A program made the position numbers and the translations under genes. A stretch of DNA of 64,000 bases from Petrotoga mobilis SJ95 (lineage in GTDB: Bacteria; Thermotogota; Thermotogae; Petrotogales; Petrotogaceae): positions 1,340,501 to 1,404,500 of the forward strand of contig NC_010003.1 in assembly GCF_000018605.1 (NCBI RefSeq), written 5' to 3'. The first letter of the stretch is position 1; each line of letters opens with the position of its first letter. The notes beneath the pieces are model-generated. The model was not told the DNA's origin. It ran no database searches and saw nothing but the letters and a program-made list of their open reading frames with translations. Of the stretch, positions 3,098-25,750 are shown one piece after another.

Positions 3098-3212
3098 CCT
3101 AAATTCTCCTTTGTTAGATAATTGTATACTATAATTATATCACACAACGAATTAATATAGTCTCTATGTATATAATTTTTGCACATCGAATTCATCTCGT
3201 GTTTGAAAACAC

Positions 3213-3302
3213 AAAATTTTGGGTTTGTTCCTCCAATATATCTTCCTATGTTGAACATTAATGAGCTAGTAGAAAAAGAATTAGAAAAAGCTAAAATAAC
3301 TA
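3213..3302 (+). pseudogene. 3' fragment of a second SecB-like chaperone gene
   Basis: Translation gives NFGFVPPIYLPMLNINELVE followed by KELEKAKIT. It is nearly identical to the C-terminus of the intact SecB-like protein at 20921..21361. The fragment starts abruptly next to the TnpB element and is cut at its last codons by a group II intron. It therefore marks a second, destroyed copy of the toxin-antitoxin-chaperone locus. Joining it to the sequence right of the other intron copy (19706) restores a stop codon and terminator (see findings). Confidence 0.8.
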
Positions 3303-5191
3303 ATCGGGTAGGAGGTAGATAATTAATTTATCTACCGTCCTCCCACACCACCGTACGTACCGTTCGGAATACGGCGGTTCAACAGAATTGATGTTTTAGG
3401 TTATACGTTTCCAGGATCGAAGTTAACCCCATTTCCTTAAGGCGTTTATTAGTTAGTGTCATTGAAAGTATCGGGCTGTTGGAGATCCTCCAATAGCCTT
3501 TTCTTGTGTTTGCATATTCCCATGCTTTGTAGGTGTTTAGTCCTAATTTGACTAAGTTTTCATGTTTTGTTTTGATTTTCTTCCATTCCTTCCAGATACA
3601 CATCCTAATTCTCCTTCTGAGCCATCCATCAAGACTTCCCGCTACCGATTTCATGTTTGCTATTCCATAGTAGTTTGTCCATCCTGTTATTATTTGTTTT
3701 ATCCTTGACAGCCTGTATGCCATGCTTCTTCCACTGCTTCTCTTCGTTTCTCCTTTTAACTTCTTTTTGAATTCTTTAATGGATTTTCCATGGACTCTAA
3801 TTTCGTACTTCTCTTCTTTCACGTAGAAGGAGAACCCTAAGTATTTGAGGTCCCAAGGTCTGACTACTTTGCTTTTCTTGCTATTCACTTTTAGCTTTAA
3901 TTTCTTCTCTATGTATTTTGTTATACTTTCCATCACCCTATATGCGGATTTCTCGCTTTTCACGTATATGTTGCAATCGTCTGCATACCTGCAAAACTTG
4001 TGTCCCCTTTTCGTTAGTTCTACGTCAAGTTCGTGGAGCATTATGTTGCTTAGTAATGGGGATAGCGGTCCCCCTTGTGGAGTCCCTTCTTCAGTTTCTA
4101 TTACTACCCCATTTACCATTACCCCACTCTTGAGGTATTTCCTTATCAGGGATATCACTCTGCCATCTTTTACGTCTTTTGATATTATCCTCATCAGTTT
4201 GTCATGGTTGACTGTGTCAAAGTAGCGTTCTAAGTCTATGTCCACTACCCATGTATGCCCTTTGTTTAGGTATTCTTTGCTTTTTCGTATGGCTTGTTTT
4301 GCATCCCGTAATGGCCTGAATCCATAACTGTTATCTACAAATTTCTTTTCGTAAATAGGTGTCAACACCTGGGCTATGGATTGCTGGATTACTCTGTCAA
4401 TTGATGTTGGTATGCCTAGTAGTCTTTTCCCTCCATCCGGTTTCGGTATTTCTTTCCTCCTTACCGACTTCGGGGTGTACCTTCCTTCAAGGAGCTCTTG
4501 CCTTAATTCTTCTCCGTGTTGTCTGAGATATCCAAAGAGTTCTTCTACTTTCATCCCGTCTATCCCAGGGGCTCCTTTGTTGGCCTTTACCTTCTTGTAT
4601 GCTTTATTCATATTATCCTTGGATAATATCTTTTCAAGCATCCCTTCACTGCATCCCTTATCATCGTTTCTTCCTCTTTCAGACGTAGAAGTTATACTAG
4701 GCGCTTCTACATTATTTTCAGGCTCTCCCTTATCTTCATGTAGGAAACCTTCTAATCGAAGTTGTATGCTTTTTCCGTGTCCCTTCGCATCTTTCAAGAT
4801 TCGAAACCTCCTGTTGTTCAGTCCTTCCTCATCTTCCAATGAGTACTATGACTTCTGCTGACTTCTCAAGATTCAGCCATACATTGCTGCATGGGTTGCC
4901 TTAACAGCGTATTCTTGAGATCTCCCCAGGTAAGTGCAATAACTTTCATCCCATCTATCCGCCAGATTTACTCCGTGAAGTTCTGGATAGCTGTTGGACT
5001 TCGTTTTGTTATGCAAACTTGTCCACTCCACTTAGCCTTGTATCTGGTTCTTGTTCATCGGACCGGGACTTTGCCTTGGGCTTCCTTCAGATTCCACCTC
5101 ACGATGGACACCCTTGCCTTCGACTAGTGGTTCCCGCTACCTGGCCCACAACGGACTTTCACCGCTTAGCTATTGCCCATGCTGGGCGCAC
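3303..5191 (-). mobile_element. Group II intron (class C type), copy 1
   Basis: The minus strand begins GTGCGCCCAGCATGGGC at 5191 and ends CTACCTCCTACCCGAT near 3303. A domain V-like hairpin (CCGAACGGTACGTACGG) precedes the final stem, and a reverse transcriptase lies inside domain IV. Its 5' end follows the T-run of the wrbA terminator, the insertion preference known for class C introns. It is almost identical in sequence and length (about 1.89 kb) to 17817..19705. The 3' boundary is uncertain by 1-2 bases. Confidence 0.85.
3379..4641 (-). CDS. ltrA: Group II intron reverse transcriptase/maturase, copy 1 (420 aa)
   Basis: RT domain motifs appear in order: KANKGAPGIDG, IPKPDGGKRLLGIPT, VDNSYGFRP, WVVDIDLERYFDTVNHD, EGTPQGGPLSPLLSNI and CRYADDCNIYV (the YADD active site). 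The maturase X domain follows (W.RRRIR...WKEWK), and the protein ends without an endonuclease domain, as in class C enzymes. The start at ATG 4641 (MLEKILSKDN) gives the usual class C length. The frame is open a further 66 codons upstream to 4839, but that stretch more likely belongs to the intron RNA core. The protein would help the intron RNA splice and reverse-transcribe into DNA targets. It is about 95% identical to the copy at 17893. Confidence 0.92.
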   Translation of the reverse strand: MLEKILSKDNMNKAYKKVKANKGAPGIDGMKVEELFGYLRQHGEELRQELLEGRYTPKSVRRKEIPKPDGGKRLLGIPTSIDRVIQQSIAQVLTPIYEKKFVDNSYGFRPLRDAKQAIRKSKEYLNKGHTWVVDIDLERYFDTVNHDKLMRIISKDVKDGRVISLIRKYLKSGVMVNGVVIETEEGTPQGGPLSPLLSNIMLHELDVELTKRGHKFCRYADDCNIYVKSEKSAYRVMESITKYIEKKLKLKVNSKKSKVVRPWDLKYLGFSFYVKEEKYEIRVHGKSIKEFKKKLKGETKRSSGRSMAYRLSRIKQIITGWTNYYGIANMKSVAGSLDGWLRRRIRMCIWKEWKKIKTKHENLVKLGLNTYKAWEYANTRKGYWRISNSPILSMTLTNKRLKEMGLTSILETYNLKHQFC

Positions 5192-5194
5192 ATA

Positions 5195-5232
5195 AAAAAG
5201 ACGCTCTTTATGAGCGTCAATTTTTATTTTTT
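5195..5232. terminator. wrbA terminator, used as intron target
   Basis: On the minus strand GACGCTCA-TAAA-GAGCGTC-type arms are followed by TTTTTTAT, directly abutting the intron 5' end at 5191. It terminates wrbA transcription. It also fits the known insertion of class C introns just downstream of terminator hairpins. Confidence 0.85.
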
Positions 5233-17544: not shown

Positions 17545-17832
17545 ATGAAAGCATTTTACTTTAAAAATAAAAGTTGTTCTGTTTGTAAAGCATTTTTTCC
17601 AAAATTTCTAGAAATTTGTTATGAATATAATATCCCTTACGAAATTGTCGAAGTTACTGAAAATCAAGAAAAATCTGCACAACTTCTCGTTTTCACAGTT
17701 CCAACGATTATTTTTCTTGATGAAGAAGGTAAAGAAGTAAAAAGATTTGCCCAATATTTTGGTACAAATGAGATAAGAAATTTTTTGGATAGATATTTTA
17801 CTATATTAGATCAAAAATCGGGTAGGAGGTAG
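17545..17832 (+). CDS. Thioredoxin-like protein, 95 aa, 3' end altered by a group II intron
   Basis: A small thioredoxin-fold protein with the redox motif CSVC (KSCSVCKAFFPKF), the cis-proline segment FTVPTIIFLDEEGKEVKRF and a C-terminal helix. The start ATG 17545 follows AGGAGGTACAAGAG. The last four residues (SGRR) and the stop codon come from the end of the adjoining intron, so the natural C-terminus has been replaced. It would act in the cytosol as a thiol-disulfide reductant. It probably once stood convergent to wrbA, whose terminator now lies beyond the other intron copy. Confidence 0.8.
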   Translation: MKAFYFKNKSCSVCKAFFPKFLEICYEYNIPYEIVEVTENQEKSAQLLVFTVPTIIFLDEEGKEVKRFAQYFGTNEIRNFLDRYFTILDQKSGRR

Positions 17833-19705
17833 ATAATTAGTTTATCTACCGTCCTCCCACACCACCGTACGTACCGTTCGGTATACGGCGGTTCAACAGA
17901 ATTGATGTTTTAGGTTATATGTTTCCAGGATCGAAGTTAATCCAATTTCCTTAAGGTGCTTATTAGTTAGTGTTCTTGAAAGTATCGGGCTGTTGGAGAT
18001 CCTCCAATGGCCTTTTCTTGTGTTTGCATATTCCCATGCTTTGTATGTGTTTAGTCCTAATTTGACTAAGTTTTTATACCTTGTTTTGATTTTCTTCCAT
18101 TCCTTCCAGATACACATCCTAATTCTCCTTCTAAGCCATCCATCAAGACTTTCCGCTGCCGATTTCATGTTTGCTATTCCATAGTAGTTTATCCATCCTG
18201 TTATTATTTGTTTTATCTTTGACAGCCTGTATGTCATGCTCCTTCCACTGCTTCTTTTCGTTTCTTCTTTTAACTTCTTTTTAAATTCTTTGATGGATTT
18301 CTCATGCACTCTGATTTCGTATTGCTCTTCTTTCCCGTAGAAGGAGAACCCTAAGTATTTGAGGTCCAAAGGCTTGACTACTTTGCTTTTCTTCCTGTTC
18401 ACTTTTAACTTTAATTTCTTCTCTATGTATTTTGTTATACTTTCCATCACCCTATATGCGGATTTCTCGCTTTTCACGTATATGTTGCAATCGTCTGCAT
18501 ACCTGCAAAACTTGTGTCCCCTTTTCGTTAGTTCTACGTCAAGTTCGTGGAGCATTATGTTGCTTAGTAATGGGGATAGCGGTCCCCCTTGCGGAGTCCC
18601 TTCTTCTGTTTCTATTACTACCCCATTTACCATTACCCCACTCTTGAGGTATTTCCTTATCAGGGATATCACTCTGCCATCTTTTACGTCTTTTGATATT
18701 ATCCTCATCAGTTTGTCATGGTTGACTGTGTCAAAGTATCGTTCTAAATCTATGTCCACTACCCACGTGTGTCCTTCGTTTAGGTATTCTTTGCTTTTCC
18801 GTATGGCTTGTTTTGCATCTCGTAATGGCCTAAATCCATAGCTGTTATCTACAAATTTCTTTTCATAAATCGGTATCAGTTCCTGGGCTATGGATTGTTG
18901 GATTACTCTGTCTATTGCTGTTGGTATGCCTAGTAGTCTTTTCCCTCCATCCGGTTTCGGTATCTCTTTCCTCCTTACCGGGTTCGGGGTGTACCTTCCT
19001 TCAAGGAGCTCTTGCCTTAATTCTTCTCCATGTTGTTTGAGATATTCAAAGAGTTCTTCTACTTCCATCCCGTCTATTCCAGGGGCTCCTTTGTTGGCCT
19101 TTACCTTCTTATATGCTTTATTCATATTATCCTTGGATAATATCTTTTCAAGCATCCCTTCACTGTATCCTTTATCATCGTTTCTTCCTCTTTCAGACGT
19201 AGAAGTTACACTAGGCGCTTCTACATTATTTTCAGGCTCTCCCTTATCTTCATGTAGGAAACCTTCTAATCGAAGTTGTATGCTTTTTCCGTGTCTCTTC
19301 GCATCTTTCAAGATTCGAAACCTCCTGTTGTTCAGTCCTTCCCCATCTTTCAATGAGTACTATGACCTCTGCTGACTTCTCAAGATTCAGCCATACATTG
19401 CTGCATGGGTTGCCTTATCAGCATGTTCTTGAGATCTCCCCAGGTAAGTGCAATAACTTTCATCCCATCTATCCGCCAGATTTACTCTGTGAAGTTCTGG
19501 ATAGCTGTTGGACTTCGTTTTGTAATGCAAACTCGTCCACTTCACTTAGCCTTGTATCTGGTTCTTGTTCATCGGACCGAGACTTTGCCTTGGGCTTCCT
19601 TCAGATTCCACCTCACGATGGACACCCTTGCCTTCGACTAGTGGTTCCCGCTACCTGGCCCACAACGGGCTTTCACCGCTTAGCTATTGCCCATGCTGGG
19701 CGCAC
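17817..19705 (-). mobile_element. Group II intron (class C type), copy 2
   Basis: It has the same length and almost the same sequence as 3303..5191, from GTGCGCCCAGCATGGGC at 19705 to CTACCTCCTACCCGAT near 17817. Its 5' end lies a few bases after a terminator hairpin (AAAGCTGTTTTTCAACAGC on the minus strand). The two copies have the same orientation, so they form 1.9-kb direct repeats 14.5 kb apart. Confidence 0.85.
17893..19155 (-). CDS. ltrA: Group II intron reverse transcriptase/maturase, copy 2 (420 aa)
   Basis: The motifs match copy 1: KANKGAPGIDG, VDIDLERYFDTVNHD, GTPQGGPLSPLL and the YADD active site in CRYADDCNIYV. The X domain (RRRIRMCIWKEWKKI) is present and there is no endonuclease domain. 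Differences from copy 1 are scattered conservative changes such as NRKKSKVVKPLDLK against NSKKSKVVRPWDLK. That suggests two functional copies that diverged recently. The start is taken at ATG 19155 (MLEKILSKDN); the frame is open up to 19353 but that part is probably intron RNA. Confidence 0.92.
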   Translation of the reverse strand: MLEKILSKDNMNKAYKKVKANKGAPGIDGMEVEELFEYLKQHGEELRQELLEGRYTPNPVRRKEIPKPDGGKRLLGIPTAIDRVIQQSIAQELIPIYEKKFVDNSYGFRPLRDAKQAIRKSKEYLNEGHTWVVDIDLERYFDTVNHDKLMRIISKDVKDGRVISLIRKYLKSGVMVNGVVIETEEGTPQGGPLSPLLSNIMLHELDVELTKRGHKFCRYADDCNIYVKSEKSAYRVMESITKYIEKKLKLKVNRKKSKVVKPLDLKYLGFSFYGKEEQYEIRVHEKSIKEFKKKLKEETKRSSGRSMTYRLSKIKQIITGWINYYGIANMKSAAESLDGWLRRRIRMCIWKEWKKIKTRYKNLVKLGLNTYKAWEYANTRKGHWRISNSPILSRTLTNKHLKEIGLTSILETYNLKHQFC

Positions 19706-19836
19706 CAAATAAAAGCTGTTGAAAAACAGCTTTTTTTAAAAGATTTTCAAAAATAAGATTTCGATTTTAAAAGGGTAAAAGGCGCTTAAAATATATAAAG
19801 AATTACTAAAAAATTTCTCTATTTTTCAATACCCTA
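19706..19836. repeat. Duplicate of the SecB-gene terminator plus the methyltransferase 3' end
   Basis: This stretch repeats 21356-21484 nearly exactly. It starts with AATAAAAGCTGTTGAAAAAC, a terminator hairpin with a T7 run, and ends in the minus-strand codons for LKNREIF and stop, which end the PglX-like gene at 21455. It is therefore the remnant of a second copy of the chaperone/methyltransferase junction, with the intron placed at its left edge. Confidence 0.8.
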
Positions 19837-19953
19837 AGAAACTAAAAAACCACTTTGCATCTATTATATGGTAAAATAGACTGTAAGGATAGGTATAATA
19901 ACGACAAAAAACGACAAGTTGTAAAAATTAATAGAATTTTAATAATAAAATGA

Positions 19954-19959
19954 TATAAT
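19954..19959 (+). promoter_or_regulatory. -10 box of the TAC operon
   Basis: TATAAT lies thirteen bases before the start codon, too close for a long leader and so giving a short or leaderless-like transcript; the -35 is unclear. Upstream, at about 19900-19917, ACGACAAAAAACGACAA is a direct repeat that could be an antitoxin operator. Confidence 0.4.
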
Positions 19960-19971
19960 GAGGTGTAGAGA

Positions 19972-20370
19972 ATGGGAGAAAGAGAAGAAAATTTGCAAGA
20001 ATTATCCCCAAAACAGCTAAAGGAGGAAATAATAAAAGCTCTTGAAAATCAACCCTTCCCAATCTTCAAACGCTCATTGAAAAACATAAACAATAGGAAC
20101 CTTCTATTAAAAATATTGGAATCAGTCTTGGAAATAAATTATGATTACACAATAGGTGAAATGAAAACAGGAAATTTAAGAGGAATCAGGGCGTACAAAT
20201 TCATACATGATAGCGTATCTTACCGGTTATCGTATTACGTAGTAAATGATGGGAAAATAATAATAACTTATATAGATATAATGAAAAGAGAAGATAGTTA
20301 TGATAATTTAAAAAAATACTTTCAATCAAGAAAATCTGTATTAAAACAAATAAATGAAAAAGGGATATAA
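19972..20370 (+). CDS. RelE/HigB-like toxin of a toxin-antitoxin-chaperone (TAC) module, 132 aa
   Basis: The C-terminal half has the RelE/HigB pattern. LLKILESVLEINYDYTIGEM leads to GNLRGIRAYKFI, the strand YRLSYYVVNDGKIIITYIDI and the ending MKREDSYDNLKKYF, which corresponds to the usual 'R.d.Y' close of RelE-fold mRNA interferases. The first 55 residues form a helical extension not usual in short RelE toxins. The start is ATG 19972 with GAGGTG nearby. Downstream are a helix-turn-helix protein and a SecB-like protein, the gene order of TAC systems such as HigB1-HigA1-Rv1957. The likely role is to cleave mRNA at the ribosome when freed. The toxin call rests on pattern and context; catalytic residues are not proven. 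Confidence 0.62.
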   Translation: MGEREENLQELSPKQLKEEIIKALENQPFPIFKRSLKNINNRNLLLKILESVLEINYDYTIGEMKTGNLRGIRAYKFIHDSVSYRLSYYVVNDGKIIITYIDIMKREDSYDNLKKYFQSRKSVLKQINEKGI

Positions 20371-20382
20371 GGAGGGAAAACA

Positions 20383-20952
20383 ATGCTTAAAATACATGAA
20401 TTATTAAATATTTTCTCTGATTTAAAGCCAAAAAATAAAGAAGTTTTGTATAATTTCTTAGCAAATCCTAAAACATATGAAGACAAAGAAGAAATTGAAG
20501 AGTTTATACAGATATTGAAAGAAATGAAAGAAGACTTGTTATATTATGATGAAGAATTTGACGACATTGAAGAAAAAGAACAAAAATTATATTTCACACA
20601 AAAAGATTTAGCAACAATGACAGGACAATCAATAAGAAATATCCAAAGAATTATCACAGAAAACAATATAAGCCCAATTAATCCTGGAAGAAAACCATTA
20701 TATTATGACCTAAAAGAATTTAATAACTATTATTTTATACAAAAAAAACTAACCCCCTCTTTGAAAAATCAAGAAATCAATACAATAAGAATATTTGGAG
20801 ATAAAAGAGAAGTAAAAGAAGAAATAGCCATGCAACGAAATTTATACCAATTTTTAGAATCGATGCCACACAGGAATCAAAGCATAACCTTATCATTGCC
20901 TAACAAAGGATGTGAAAAAGATGAAAATGAGCAATATTCAAATGCGCTATGA
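20383..20952 (+). CDS. Helix-turn-helix antitoxin-like protein of the TAC module, 189 aa
   Basis: There are three visible parts. The first is an acidic helical N-terminus (about 1-70) with an EEFDDIEEKEQK run. The second is a helix-turn-helix at about 68-115 (YFTQKDLATMTGQSIRNIQR, then NPGRKPLYYDLKEFNNYYF), resembling excisionase/MerR-like HTH_17 domains. The third is a C-terminal tail (about 125-189) with hydrophobic patches. In TAC systems the antitoxin carries a C-terminal chaperone-addiction segment bound by the SecB-like partner, and the tail is the obvious candidate. RBS AAGGAGGG precedes ATG 20383, 12 bases after the toxin stop. It overlaps the chaperone gene by 32 bases, so the two are coupled. 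It probably also represses the operon. Confidence 0.6.
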   Translation: MLKIHELLNIFSDLKPKNKEVLYNFLANPKTYEDKEEIEEFIQILKEMKEDLLYYDEEFDDIEEKEQKLYFTQKDLATMTGQSIRNIQRIITENNISPINPGRKPLYYDLKEFNNYYFIQKKLTPSLKNQEINTIRIFGDKREVKEEIAMQRNLYQFLESMPHRNQSITLSLPNKGCEKDENEQYSNAL

Positions 20953-21361
20953 CATAATTAAAAAATTAAATTATGAATTAAAAGACGAAAGTCTAAACAA
21001 CAAAAAACTAACACCAAATATAGACATTTCGGTTACACAAAATTTCCAACCAAAAGAAAAAGAATACTTTGGGACATTAGGATTAAAAATAAAATTTCAT
21101 TTGAAAGAATCAAAAAAAATAGTATTAAAATTAGAACTTGAAACAGAAGCAGGATTTTATGGCAACCCCAAAATAAAGGAAAACGAATTCAAAGAACTAG
21201 TAATAAAATCTGGAATAATGAGCTTATTGCAGATATCAAGAGCAAAAATAATATCAATATCCGCAAATTTTGGGTTTGTTCCTCCAATATATCTTCCGAT
21301 GTTGAACATTAACGAACTAGTAGAAAAAGAATTAGAAAAAGCTAAAATAACAAACCAATAA
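20921..21361 (+). CDS. SecB-like chaperone of the TAC module, 146 aa
   Basis: The family signature is in the second half: LELETEAGFYGNPKIKENEF (SecB: 'E...aGiF.i'), then GIMSLLQISRAKIISISANF and GFVPPIYLPMLNINELVE. The last part corresponds to SecB's '.gGFPPl.L.PiNF..LY' ending. The length is that of SecB. The first half has the alternating pattern expected for the SecB beta-sheet. ATG 20921 is chosen because AAAGGA ends ten bases upstream. The gene overlaps the antitoxin and ends at a strong terminator. In TAC systems this protein binds the antitoxin tail, protects it from proteolysis and so keeps the toxin off. A second copy survives only as a fragment at 3213. Confidence 0.75.
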   Translation: MKMSNIQMRYDIIKKLNYELKDESLNNKKLTPNIDISVTQNFQPKEKEYFGTLGLKIKFHLKESKKIVLKLELETEAGFYGNPKIKENEFKELVIKSGIMSLLQISRAKIISISANFGFVPPIYLPMLNINELVEKELEKAKITNQ

Positions 21362-21392
21362 AAGCTGTTGAAAAACAGCTTTTTTTAAAAGA
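21362..21392. terminator. Terminator between the TAC and methyltransferase operons
   Basis: AAAGCTGTT-GAAA-AACAGCTTTTTTT follows the chaperone stop within one base. It is repeated at 19710-19737, where the group II intron has inserted beside it. Confidence 0.85.
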
Positions 21393-21454
21393 TTTTCAAA
21401 AATAAGATTTCGATTTTAAAAGGGTTAAAGGCGCATAAGAATTATAAAGAATTA

Positions 21455-24400
21455 CTAAAAAATTTCTCTATTTTTCAATACTCCATCGTCTATATTCACC
21501 TCAAAATTCTTCGACTCTATCATCTTCATTAAATCCCTGACACTTTTGTTCTCGTTCCTTCTTTGCCGTGAGGCTGTCTTTCCTTGAACCCCCTTCGGGG
21601 CGCTTGAGGCTGTCTTCCTTATTTGCCGTGAGGCCGTTTCTTTGATCCTATTTCTCAAAAAGCTCAAGATATTGATCTTTGTTTTTTCGTTCAAGTTATG
21701 ATAATGAACTAAAAAACCACAATCTCTCTTTCCCAACTTCCAAACAATAGGCCTATCTTTATAAAACTTTTCATGAAGTTTTAGGTAATCTTTAAAGATA
21801 TAATCCCTCAAATCTTTCTTCACAATACTCTCTAATTCAGAACGCTCCTTGAATATTGAGGATAACAGTTTATTTTCTTCTTCAACTGAAAACCCAAAAG
21901 GGATAAAACCATCTTCGCAATTCAAAAGATACCTTTGGATCCCATTATCTATTCTTACAAAAGCTAATTTTGCTAAAATCTGATCTTGGTTACTCATACT
22001 GTTGTAAACGGAAATAGGACTTTGAAAACTTTCTTCTGCTTTTCTTTCCACATAGTTATCGTATGGCTCTCTTCGATGATAGTTGGTTACACCTTCATCA
22101 AAAGGAATAATGGAAATTAAAGACCTGATTTTATTATTATAAGCCTCTTTAATAAAATTTTCTATTTTGGTAAGTTGAGCTTCATTCAAACCAAATTCAT
22201 AAAGATACTGGTTTTTCAACAGTTCTTTCAATGGGGGCAAACCCTTTATACCTTTATCGGTAGAAAAAGGGAAAAAGGCCGTAGGAATCCCCACTGTTTT
22301 ATAAATCTCCTCAAAATTTCTTTCTTTCAAACTGTACAACTCCATCACCAGTATATCTATCAAACCTTCAGAAAGAAGCATATACGTATCAAGAGCGTTT
22401 TTACTCTCTATGAAACCATAAAACTTAGAAACGCCATCGATACTCTCCTCGTTGAAATGCAGTTCGTTTGGATATATCTCGGTATTCTGCTTTTTAATTG
22501 CCACGTTCAATCTAGCAAGCGTTTCTAACGCCTGAGTCTCAGAAGAACCCTCAAACAAACCTTGTGGAACGGGAAGCTTTTTCAAATCCCCAACTTCCAA
22601 ATCCACGCTTCCTGCAATAAAACTCTCCAAATAAGAAAACAAACTACTATTGAGTAAGCCCAAAAACCTAAAGATATCTTCATCTTTTGAAAAGAACAAA
22701 CTACTACCCTTACAATCGAACAAGAATCCTGAGGGGAGATATCTAAAAGTTGCCCCTTTCGAGGTTGTCATCGTGTAAGTTATACCCTTTTTAAAATAAT
22801 ACTTTCTATTTGGAAGATAGTTCCCCATTTTTGACAATAGATTATAATTCTCTTCATCGAAGGCTATAACCCACCACAAATTACCATACCATTTATTGTA
22901 AGGTCCACCTTTGGCATATGGGACCCATTTCTTTCCATCTTTAATATCCTCTCTTCTAACTTCCCAAAAGTACCTCAAAAACCTGTTGTTATTCCCGGTA
23001 GCTATCCCCTGTCGTGCATCAGCAAACTTCTCCAAAGGTTCGTTTTCAAAGGTACGTACAACGTCTGAATCCACCCAATAAATGAAAGGAAACCTCGGAA
23101 CCTTTGTAAAAACCCTCTTATCAACCTTGAAAACATACTTAGAAAGATAATTCTCTCTCTTCTTTTCCTCACTTGCCGTGAGGCTGTCTTTCCAAATAGA
23201 AAATAAAGCACGTTTCTTAGAATCTTTTCCGTTAAAAGAGGTCAAGTTTATATATTCACCCAAACTTTTCTCCTCACTTGCCGTGAGGCTGTCTTTCCTT
23301 GAACCCCCTTCGGGGCGCTTGAGGCTGTTTTCCTTATGTGCCGTGAGGCTGTTTTTACTTTTCCTCAAAACAAACATCGCTGTGTCCACTAAAGCGTTAT
23401 CAAACACCCCTCCAAGGCCAAAATGAACCAATCTCTCTATCTGAAAGTTATCTAATATGAACCTTCTTGTCTTCTCATAGCTCCCAATAAACATAAAGGT
23501 TTGAGGGGTAATCATACCAACAAATCCATCCATCTTCACCAATTCGCAACTCTTTTTAATAAAGCAGGCGTACAGATTTTTTTTAAACTCACTATAATCC
23601 TCGTTTATGTACCTCTTCAATTCAAAATCATAATCAGAGGAATCCAAATAAGGAGGGTTGGTTAAAACAACATCGTACTTCAAAGAAAGAATATCTAAAG
23701 CTTTCTTCAATGGTTCATCGTTTATACCTGACTCCTTTAAACTTAAAACATCCTCTGTTCTCATCAAGCTCCCAATCTTTTCAAACTTCTTCAAATACTC
23801 ATTCTGCCCTTCTTCATTTGTCGTGAGGCTGCCTTTCCTTGAACCCCCTTCGGGGCGCTTGAGGCTGTTCTCTTTCGGAACAGCTACTATGTTTGTTTCA
23901 ATCCTCTCATATGCTCCATCTTCTAAAGCCTTCAATCTCAACAACAAATTCGTAATTTCAACAGCGTTCTCATCGATATCTATACCGTATAAATTCTTAG
24001 TAATTATAAGTTTTGGAATCAAAGCATCATCGTAACCTTTATTTTGATACATCTCTCTCAACTTATCGTAAACCCCTATAACAAAGTTCCCACATCCACA
24101 AGCAGGGTCAATAATCTTAACATCCTCAAGGTCTACTCCCTTATCATCACCTGCCGTGAGGCTGTCTTCCTTATGTGCCGTGAGGCCGTTTCTTCCGTAA
24201 TACTTCCCCAACGTATTTTCCACCAAATAATCCACTATCCATTTTGGGGTATAAAACTGTGAAATAACACCATTTTTACCCTTTAAATCCTTACCTGCCA
24301 TGAGGCTGTCTTTGCTTGAACCTCCTTTGGGGCTCTTGAGGCTGGCTTCGTTGAAATACTCGTAAGACCAAGAAATAATTTCCTCTTTCTTCCAATCTTC

Positions 24401-24832
24401 ATCTTTCACACTCTGAAACAAATCTCTGACTTTTTCTATTGTTTGGCTAGTAATTCTGCTTTTAATATCATCGACTAAATAACAACAATCAAAATTTCTA
24501 TTCAGAAATTGCACCCCAGAAAGATAACTACCCAACAGATTCGAATCTGAACCACTCTTTCCAAAAAGTTGTAAATCTCCCTCCATATTTGCGGTGAGGC
24601 TGTCTTTCCTTGAACCCCCTTCGGGGCGTTTGAGGCTGTTTCCCTTTGCCTGTAAAACTCTTAGGACAATAAAACTCAAAAAAACATCCAACAAAACTCT
24701 CCCCTCACCTGCCGTGAGGCTGTCTTTCCTTGAACCCCTTTCGGGGCGCTTGAGGCTGTCTTCCTCATTTATGACCTCTTTTTGCAGGATGCTCTTAAGC
24801 TCCAAAGCCATTTTTTTAACGGATCTGTTCAA
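21455..24832 (-). CDS. PglX-like adenine-specific DNA methyltransferase with many inserted repeats, 1125 aa
   Basis: A class I N6-adenine methyltransferase related to BREX PglX and type IIG enzymes. Motif I is IIDPACGCGNFVIGVYDKL, a YGIDIDENAVEITNLL segment follows, and the catalytic motif is VVLTNPPYLDSSDYDF. After that come FVGMITPQTFMFIGSYEK and the PglX-type target-recognition part (KKWVPYAKGGPYNKWYGN, then LNSSLFSYLESFIAGSVDLE). No BREX partners (PglZ, BrxC, BrxL) are in the window. At least eight sites carry in-frame copies of a short repeat read as NSLKRPEGGSRKDSLTA or, in another frame, KTASRQ. These interrupt the N-terminus, linkers and C-terminus but spare the motifs. It starts at TTG 24832, after AAGGTGG and overlapping the ATPase stop (ATG 24811 is an alternative). 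It lies convergent to the TAC operon. Confidence 0.82.
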   Translation of the reverse strand: MNRSVKKMALELKSILQKEVINEEDSLKRPERGSRKDSLTAGEGRVLLDVFLSFIVLRVLQAKGNSLKRPEGGSRKDSLTANMEGDLQLFGKSGSDSNLLGSYLSGVQFLNRNFDCCYLVDDIKSRITSQTIEKVRDLFQSVKDEDWKKEEIISWSYEYFNEASLKSPKGGSSKDSLMAGKDLKGKNGVISQFYTPKWIVDYLVENTLGKYYGRNGLTAHKEDSLTAGDDKGVDLEDVKIIDPACGCGNFVIGVYDKLREMYQNKGYDDALIPKLIITKNLYGIDIDENAVEITNLLLRLKALEDGAYERIETNIVAVPKENSLKRPEGGSRKGSLTTNEEGQNEYLKKFEKIGSLMRTEDVLSLKESGINDEPLKKALDILSLKYDVVLTNPPYLDSSDYDFELKRYINEDYSEFKKNLYACFIKKSCELVKMDGFVGMITPQTFMFIGSYEKTRRFILDNFQIERLVHFGLGGVFDNALVDTAMFVLRKSKNSLTAHKENSLKRPEGGSRKDSLTASEEKSLGEYINLTSFNGKDSKKRALFSIWKDSLTASEEKKRENYLSKYVFKVDKRVFTKVPRFPFIYWVDSDVVRTFENEPLEKFADARQGIATGNNNRFLRYFWEVRREDIKDGKKWVPYAKGGPYNKWYGNLWWVIAFDEENYNLLSKMGNYLPNRKYYFKKGITYTMTTSKGATFRYLPSGFLFDCKGSSLFFSKDEDIFRFLGLLNSSLFSYLESFIAGSVDLEVGDLKKLPVPQGLFEGSSETQALETLARLNVAIKKQNTEIYPNELHFNEESIDGVSKFYGFIESKNALDTYMLLSEGLIDILVMELYSLKERNFEEIYKTVGIPTAFFPFSTDKGIKGLPPLKELLKNQYLYEFGLNEAQLTKIENFIKEAYNNKIRSLISIIPFDEGVTNYHRREPYDNYVERKAEESFQSPISVYNSMSNQDQILAKLAFVRIDNGIQRYLLNCEDGFIPFGFSVEEENKLLSSIFKERSELESIVKKDLRDYIFKDYLKLHEKFYKDRPIVWKLGKRDCGFLVHYHNLNEKTKINILSFLRNRIKETASRQIRKTASSAPKGVQGKTASRQRRNENKSVRDLMKMIESKNFEVNIDDGVLKNREIF

Positions 24833-25750
24833 AATAAGCCACCTTCTCTTCTCTCTTTTTCACCCTAAAATCCTCTTCGCCCAAATAAATCAAACCTTCT
24901 TTTGGAACGATCTCTATCAACCTTGAAACGGTTCTATCATCCAAAAAATTAACCAGCTCTTTTGGATTCAAGTTCGTAGAAATTATAACGCTTTTTTGGT
25001 TTCTATTGACCTCGTCTATAACGATTCTTATCTTCTGCCCTATCCATTCATAACTCTTGGCACCAAGATCGTCTATAAAAATCAAATCAGATTCAAACGC
25101 TCTCTCAATAGCGGCATCGGCACCTTCAAAATTCTCAAAATCCCTCAATATATCCAAGACACCAATAGAACAACCCATAACAGCGGCCTCTTTCAACACA
25201 GTAAAACCTAACCTACTCTTCCCCGTACCGTAGCCTCCATGTAGTATCAAACCAACACCCTTTTCCCACAACTTCTCCTCAACAAAGTAACGGCATTTTA
25301 GCAAACCCTTCTTCAAATGCTCATTCAGTGCAAGAAAATTATCAAACGATGCATCAAGATAAATCTTTGGGGAAATATCTCTGTAATTTCTACTCCCATT
25401 CAAATAATTCATGAAAATCGAACACATATATTTATTATCTAAAATCCCGCGACTCGGGCAATTCTCAGGATCCTTACAAAAACAATCCCTCTCAGAAGAA
25501 TTTGGCATACTTGCTACCTCCCTTATTTGCCGTGAGGCTGTTTTCCTTATGTGCCGCAAGGCTGTTCTCTCCTCTGTGAACATTATACCGCACTCCCTTA
25601 TTGTAAACCTCTTTTTTCTCCTTCCTTATTTGCCGTGATGCTGTCTCTCTTAATTGCAAATCAGCAAACCAAAAAGTACTAGAAAAAGCCTCTTTGCCCT
25701 CCACATTTGCCGTCAGGCCGTCTTCCTTGTTCGCCGTAAGGCTGTTAACT
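21560..25750 (-). repeat. Family of short repeats inserted in frame in three genes (about 11 sites)
   Basis: The core unit on the coding strand is ACAGCCTCACGGCA. It occurs alone, as tandem units joined by AATAAGGAAG (24-nt period), or as a long form: two CAGCCTCA arms around a CCCCGAAGGGG hairpin and a GTTCAAGGAAAG link. Sites lie near 21565-21640, 23175, 23278-23350, 23820-23870, 24150-24190, 24297-24345, 24592-24640, 24711-24765, 25525-25562, 25632 and 25705-25745. Every copy keeps the host frame open. I saw no copy in this window outside these genes and the intron-3 RT (46597). It recalls the Rickettsia palindromic elements in behaviour but not in sequence. Confidence 0.85.
24816..25508 (-). 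CDS. DnaC/IstB-like AAA+ ATPase (helicase-loader type), 230 aa
   Basis: Walker A is LHGGYGTGKSRLG, Walker B is DLIFIDDLGAKSYEW, sensor 1 is SVIISTNLNPKEL, and the arginine-rich end is DDRTVSRLIEIVP. The N-terminus has a cysteine cluster, CFCKDPENCPSRGI with a later C, as in some DnaC/DnaI-like loaders. ATG 25508 (MPNSSERD) follows GGGAGGTAGCAAGT. The open frame upstream consists of the short repeat (TALRHIRKTASRQIREV) and is probably untranslated or part of the preceding gene. It overlaps the preceding gene by 17 bases and the methyltransferase by 17 bases. With the winged-helix protein before it, it suggests a plasmid- or phage-type replication initiation pair. Confidence 0.8.
   Translation of the reverse strand: MPNSSERDCFCKDPENCPSRGILDNKYMCSIFMNYLNGSRNYRDISPKIYLDASFDNFLALNEHLKKGLLKCRYFVEEKLWEKGVGLILHGGYGTGKSRLGFTVLKEAAVMGCSIGVLDILRDFENFEGADAAIERAFESDLIFIDDLGAKSYEWIGQKIRIVIDEVNRNQKSVIISTNLNPKELVNFLDDRTVSRLIEIVPKEGLIYLGEEDFRVKKREEKVAYFEQIR

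Follow-up and report, generated by a model that had tools for sequence, protein, structure and literature searches.

Positions 19954-21392 of a 64,000-nucleotide stretch of the Petrotoga mobilis SJ95 genome (hereafter the window) very probably encode a tripartite toxin-antitoxin-chaperone (TAC) system of an undescribed type, consisting of a toxin of family PF15781, an antitoxin that combines a MerR/Xis-type helix-turn-helix (HTH) with a chaperone-addiction tail, and a SecB-like chaperone dedicated to the pair. The TAC gene order and the possibility of a new TAC subtype had been raised in an earlier note made from the sequence, and both are supported by the T-A-C operon with its PF15781 toxin and MerR/Xis-type antitoxin. 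The three open reading frames are co-directional on the plus strand and lie where the note had placed a set of coupled genes, with order and frames kept in congeners and in distant genera. The operon contains the following features.

19833-19971, plus strand: leader, a probable promoter/operator region, with ACGACAAAAAACGACA repeats, a ACAAGTTGT palindrome and then an AGGTG ribosome-binding site.
19972-20370, plus strand: T, the ParE-like (RelE superfamily) toxin gene, 132 aa, matching PF15781 at E 2.1e-11.
20383-20952, plus strand: A, the antitoxin gene, 189 aa, with a helical N-domain, a MerR/excisionase-type HTH and a tail predicted to be disordered.
20921-21361, plus strand: C, the SecB-like chaperone gene, 146 aa from ATG 20921, with GTG 20912 as a possible start.
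21360-21390, no strand assigned: terminator-like hairpin AAAAGCTGTTGAAAAACAGCTTTT-TTT, seen in the sequence immediately 3' of the secB stop.

T and A are separated by 12 nt, a gap that contains an AGGAGG ribosome site, and the A and C reading frames overlap by 32-41 nt. For C, ATG 20921 is better positioned for an AAAGGA site than GTG 20912. From about position 19842 the leader had a mean column identity of 93% among four congeners, with the last bases of the ACAAGTTGT palindrome differing in two of the four. The palindrome and the ACGACA repeats of the leader are candidate operators, as judged from their sequence. The hairpin stretch 3' of secB was present in all four congeneric TACs, and an automatic scan reported a terminator-like hairpin 3' of C on the minus strand only. 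Identity of the T, A and C frames was 88-97% in three congeners and 23-56% in more distant genera, with the order kept in both. Synonymous changes outnumbered non-synonymous changes in T (dN/dS 0.25-0.63), the head of A (0.02-0.13) and C (0.11-0.31), indicating that all three are genuine genes.

T matched the Pfam 'ParE-like toxin' family PF15781 with 44.1 bits against a cut-off of 28, and the same family was matched by all 11 distinct T orthologues scanned. The first gene had been described as RelE/HigB-patterned; its place in the RelE superfamily was retained, and its identification as HigB was rejected in favor of PF15781. Since the PF15781 match spans residues 30-114, the extension of the toxin amounts to about 25-30 residues at the N-terminus plus 18 at the C-terminus, which replaces the 55-residue helical extension previously proposed. 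A Pfam scan yielded no HicAB or MqsRA match for T or A. Positions conserved throughout the T orthologues include G62, K65, L69, G71, R73, and Y88, and the basic residues among these are possible catalytic residues. PF15781 toxins have been found to cluster among ribosome-dependent mRNases (PMC11980606), and mRNA is therefore proposed as the target of T. The ParE-like name of the family would instead fit a gyrase poison of the classical ParE kind, a reading that would not otherwise affect the TAC model and is considered improbable, given the published clustering (PMC11980606) and the T profile, whose weak matches go to RelE chains in the PDB (E 0.04).

A is composed of a helical N-domain (residues 1-58), a MerR/excisionase-type HTH (about 68-118) and a C-terminal tail (about 119-189). 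The HTH gave weak HTH_17/MerR_1 matches in Pfam and no XRE match. The AlphaFold2 model of A has low overall confidence (pLDDT 63.6), with values of about 70-90 for the N-domain and HTH and below 50 for residues 123-189; its best Foldseek structures, all at E of at least 0.08, include MerR-family regulators, RacA, BmrR and phage Xis. These results agree with the earlier view of an HTH antitoxin with a long C-terminal tail, its HTH being MerR/excisionase-like and not XRE/HigA-like. As A carries an HTH, autoregulation of the operon is likely. The best match of the A profile among PDB sequences, mitochondrial mS33 near E 0.01, was judged to be due to chance.

Across the family the tail of A is 44-84 residues long, predicted to be disordered and variable in sequence, with 8-23% identity to the window protein between genera compared to 29-66% for the HTH. 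Within the genus, dN/dS was 0.46-3.85 for the tail versus 0.02-0.13 for the head, although the counts are small. Known chaperone-addiction tails vary in both length and sequence (PMC5105189). The tail of A is presumed to be such a chaperone-addiction region (ChAD), its variability being as expected of these sequences. No motif common to the A tail and the tails of HigBA-type TACs of Thermotogota was found, even where SecB is close, and in the latter comparison the likeness did not rise above shuffled controls. The end of the A tail differs from the LAA-type degron noted for CmdA. An ENEQ[YF] likeness at the A C-terminus was considered as a tail motif and rejected, since it is explained by the overlap of A with the secB reading frame.

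The assignment of the third gene as SecB-like was confirmed by NCBIfam SecB (E 9e-7), by PADLOC PD-T4-9_C (E 4.6e-6) and by the predicted fold of the protein. The model of C (pLDDT 87.9) matched 23 PDB chains at E<=1e-3 in Foldseek, the best being 5mtw_C (E 3.8e-8, TM 0.69-0.73), the M. tuberculosis Rv1957 TAC chaperone bound to the HigA1 tail. On this model, C is a protein of SecB fold. The fold anticipated in the earlier note was thus recovered; the Pfam SecB match anticipated with it was not, as C fell below the threshold of PF02556, and a search of PDB sequences with the C profile gave nothing significant. The SecB fold is common to export SecB, and the Foldseek scores of the E. coli and H. 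influenzae export proteins came close behind 5mtw, which would accord with C being a general export or folding chaperone that by chance shares a transcript with an ordinary toxin-antitoxin gene pair. This reading is very improbable: C scored 27-29 bits against the NCBIfam export-SecB equivalog models, far below their cut-off of 143; the antitoxin family is linked to SecB in 12 of 12 cases; congeners without the toxin-antitoxin pair also lack secB; and the intact SecB genes examined in Thermotogota all lie behind toxin-antitoxin-type genes. As a dedicated TAC chaperone, C probably keeps antitoxin A stable, judging by the anatomy of the operon.

A profile search with A yielded 12 strong members in 103 Thermotogota genomes, representing 8 genera and 4 families, and each of the 12 had a PF15781 toxin upstream and SecB downstream (loci L001-L007, L009, L012, L032-L034). 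No full-length member was detected elsewhere in 390 genomes, most of them outside Thermotogota; restriction of this T-A-C type to Thermotogota is not proven, as coverage of other phyla is thin. A pattern scan of genome contigs with the antitoxin found two relatives only, both from Thermotogota, and scans of viral contigs with the antitoxin and with the toxin found no relative. No part of the SecB alignment was sufficiently conserved for pattern scanning. Among plasmids, neither A nor C had a relative, and a single distant toxin, with a partner of AbrB type, was found. Weak A matches outside Thermotogota (genomes G142 and G263) were rejected as TACs, one being an excisionase-like HTH gene and the other an apparent DNA methyltransferase with an HTH. 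Non-TAC PF15781 toxins of Thermotogota (two intact loci, L093 and L095) are preceded by an AbrB-like gene and lack a SecB gene, an order in agreement with the published antitoxin-toxin order of the PF15781 family (PMC11980606).

The whole triad is also carried by Marinitoga camini virus 1 (MCV1; KP836355.1) as UF08_53, UF08_52, and UF08_51, all annotated 'hypothetical protein', and a Marinitoga-like genome (G010) encodes the identical three proteins. The HerA-like and resolvase neighbours are alike in G010 and the virus, indicating an integrated virus in G010. The viral TAC is located at L110:5016-8660, with the resolvase gene 0.75 kb downstream.

SecB-like genes were present in 28 of the 103 Thermotogota genomes, nearly all of them in TACs, and no intact solitary SecB occurred among the Thermotogota loci examined; the earlier impression that the SecB-like gene is solitary and unexpected here was therefore abandoned. 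Based upon neighbours read by eye, the 28 comprise 12 of the present type, 14 of the HigBA/XRE type, one short-antitoxin type (L017) and one fragment; one of the 12 present-type genomes also has a HigBA/XRE-type TAC. The short-antitoxin locus (L017:650-1866) is tentatively read as a possible CmdTAC-like operon in the same family, with SecB, an antitoxin of 94 aa whose last residues are AA, and candidate toxin ORFs that contain a YHGTSKENA motif; its toxin tentatively resembles an ADP-ribosyltransferase, and its 75-aa ORF had no Pfam match.

According to the SecB tree, the present type and the HigBA type interleave, with at least three type changes forced by well-supported branches. For example, L009, of the present type, clusters at 88/92 support with two loci of HigBA type, L008 and L010, in a tree whose long branches make individual placements uncertain and the position of L012 unsure. 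The SecB/tail module has been shown experimentally to be transferable (PMC5105189), and the interleaving represents the natural counterpart of that result. Serine recombinase genes were found within about 10 bp of secB in three TAC loci and 0.3 kb away in a fourth (L032:1997-3414, L089:78-1969, L090:3670-5535, L008:1-1926). Since they occur beside secB in TACs of either type, recombinase and TAC may form a cassette.

The TAC of the window faces a PglX-like gene (21455-24832) on the opposite strand, which scored 488.9 bits against a BREX-1 PglX cut-off of 500. PglZ is absent from the genome, and hence the PglX-like gene is not part of a BREX island; with the score below the cut-off as well, a BREX defence island around the TAC was rejected. 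The methyltransferase neighbour described earlier is real, the defence-type setting does not hold as BREX, and the adjacency is local: spacing and orientation of pglX to the TAC vary between congeners, and in three congeners the TAC is at another site, its upstream end abutting a pglX fragment. Some congener TAC neighbourhoods contain other defence-like genes, e.g. genes for an ATPase with a small partner, which score as HEC-01. In two congeners (L050:1422-5589, L051:8603-12788), a two-gene pair close to the TAC encodes a large protein (PADLOC Ppl, E 1e-19) and an SLFN/AlbA_2 protein, possibly another defence system. A short in-frame repeat encoding SLKRPEGGSRKDSLTA-like peptides occurs in several copies in the PglX-like gene and also at 25500-25740. 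At the DNA level it had 19 matches in the genome, mostly in or near pglX, with 17-27 in four congeners and none in G003. Similar protein-coding insertion repeats occur, for example, in Rickettsia.

The operon is flanked by 125-bp direct repeats (19708-19832 and 21357-21481, 96% identical). These were considered as element ends and rejected, as they are two copies of the sequence downstream of secB, one of them left from a second TAC copy that was destroyed and of which the following features were recognized.

3214-3303, plus strand (within 3209-3307): left-hand remnant of the second TAC copy, the last ~30 codons of secB, 96% identical in DNA and cut by a group II intron.
17816-19714, minus strand: group II intron copy with an RT/maturase ORF (17893-19353; RVT_1 and GIIM domains), abutting the right-hand remnant.
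19708-19832, plus strand: right-hand remnant of the second TAC copy, a 125-bp copy (96%) of the secB downstream flank at 21357-21481, also matching congener flanks.

Self-comparison identified a sister group II intron copy at 3302-5197, 95% identical to that at 17816-19714, and the segment separating the two remnants is bounded by these copies. The second TAC copy appears to have been destroyed, cut by a group II intron, an order of events that we infer from the sequence. An AT-rich dispersed repeat of ~45 bp is also present in the flank (21387-21431 and about 19738-19782), with about 18 further matches in the genome and 20-32 in most congeners.

In described TACs, binding of the antitoxin tail by a SecB-like chaperone lets the antitoxin fold and protects it against proteolysis; if the chaperone is missing, the toxin is free (PMC5105189, PMC6377645). 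The antitoxin is displaced from the chaperone by a T4 capsid protein in CmdTAC (PMC11618068) and by a lambda tail protein in HigBAC (PMC11980606). By the anatomy of such systems, a SecB tetramer would bind the unfolded C-terminal tail of A, let A fold and presumably shield it from a protease, and folded A would neutralise T and repress the operon via its HTH. Excess unfolded protein, most plausibly incoming phage structural proteins, would then occupy SecB, resulting in the loss of A, and T, once free, would halt translation, with cleavage of ribosome-bound mRNA as the probable means. More tentatively, and with slightly less than even confidence, we propose a SecB-controlled class with a PF15781 toxin and MerR/Xis antitoxin that is spread by Thermotogota temperate viruses and serine-recombinase elements, is turned on competing phages via their structural proteins, and has swapped SecB repeatedly with HigBA-type modules. 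The present role of a true TAC could also be element maintenance, i.e. addiction of prophages and integrative elements, and not phage defence, as would fit the serine recombinase genes that adjoin or closely follow Thermotogota TACs (L032, L089, L090, L008, and MCV1 with its lysogen), the decay of the second TAC copy in the same genome and the absence of the TAC from two of six congeners. We regard this as unlikely, given that the TACs of the window and its congeners have no adjacent recombinase yet are under purifying selection, and that plain addiction gains nothing from a SecB sensor; the two roles are compatible.

The operon appears to be an undescribed type in a known family of phage-sensing suicide switches. 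It would add a toxin family and an antitoxin architecture that are both new to the range of chaperone-controlled toxin-antitoxin pairs, and would do so in thermophiles, in which no SecB was expected, and on a virus. Furthermore, the exchange of SecB between unrelated toxin-antitoxin types supports SecB and tail as a portable sensor, and for three Marinitoga camini virus 1 products annotated 'hypothetical protein' there is now a function that can be tested. The thermostable proteins should aid structural work on a full toxin-antitoxin-chaperone complex.

The toxin-antitoxin pairs named for TACs are HigBA, HicAB, and MqsRA (PMC5105189), and CmdTAC is a further TAC (PMC11618068); a review of the RelE/ParE superfamily mentions TACs for HigB only and lists PF15781 without one (PMC11980606). 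No description of a TAC with a PF15781 toxin and MerR-type antitoxin was found in the literature searched, and priority is not certain. The present operon has the general properties of the class, with a type II toxin-antitoxin pair and a SecB-like chaperone in one operon, an order shared by 12 genomes and a virus, and an antitoxin whose C-terminal extension, by sequence comparison, appears variable in sequence and length. TACs of HicAB and MqsRA type likewise combine a pair and a SecB-like chaperone in one operon, with toxin and antitoxin of families other than those of T and A. Bicistronic PF15781 (ParE-like/RelE) pairs have the toxin family in common with T; in those the antitoxin, a Phd/YefM or AbrB-like partner, comes first and there is no chaperone (PMC11980606), opposite to the T-A-C order. 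CmdTAC (PD-T4-9) is alike in T-A-C order, in a chaperone family with which C scores (PD-T4-9_C) and in a presumed chaperone-titration trigger, but its mRNA ADP-ribosyltransferase CmdT and short two-helix CmdA had no counterpart among the matches of T or A, and only C resembles a component of that system. C is likewise distinct from the export SecB equivalog (28.8 bits versus 143). The HigBA-SecB TACs (M. tuberculosis Rv1955-1957; E. coli HigBAC) share the T-A-C order, a RelE-superfamily toxin, an HTH antitoxin with a variable C-terminal tail and a SecB-fold chaperone, that of the window best matching 5mtw. They differ in their toxin, HigB there and PF15781 here, and in their antitoxin, XRE-type HigA there and a helical N-domain with a MerR/Xis-type HTH here, and the operon is therefore not of the HigBA type.
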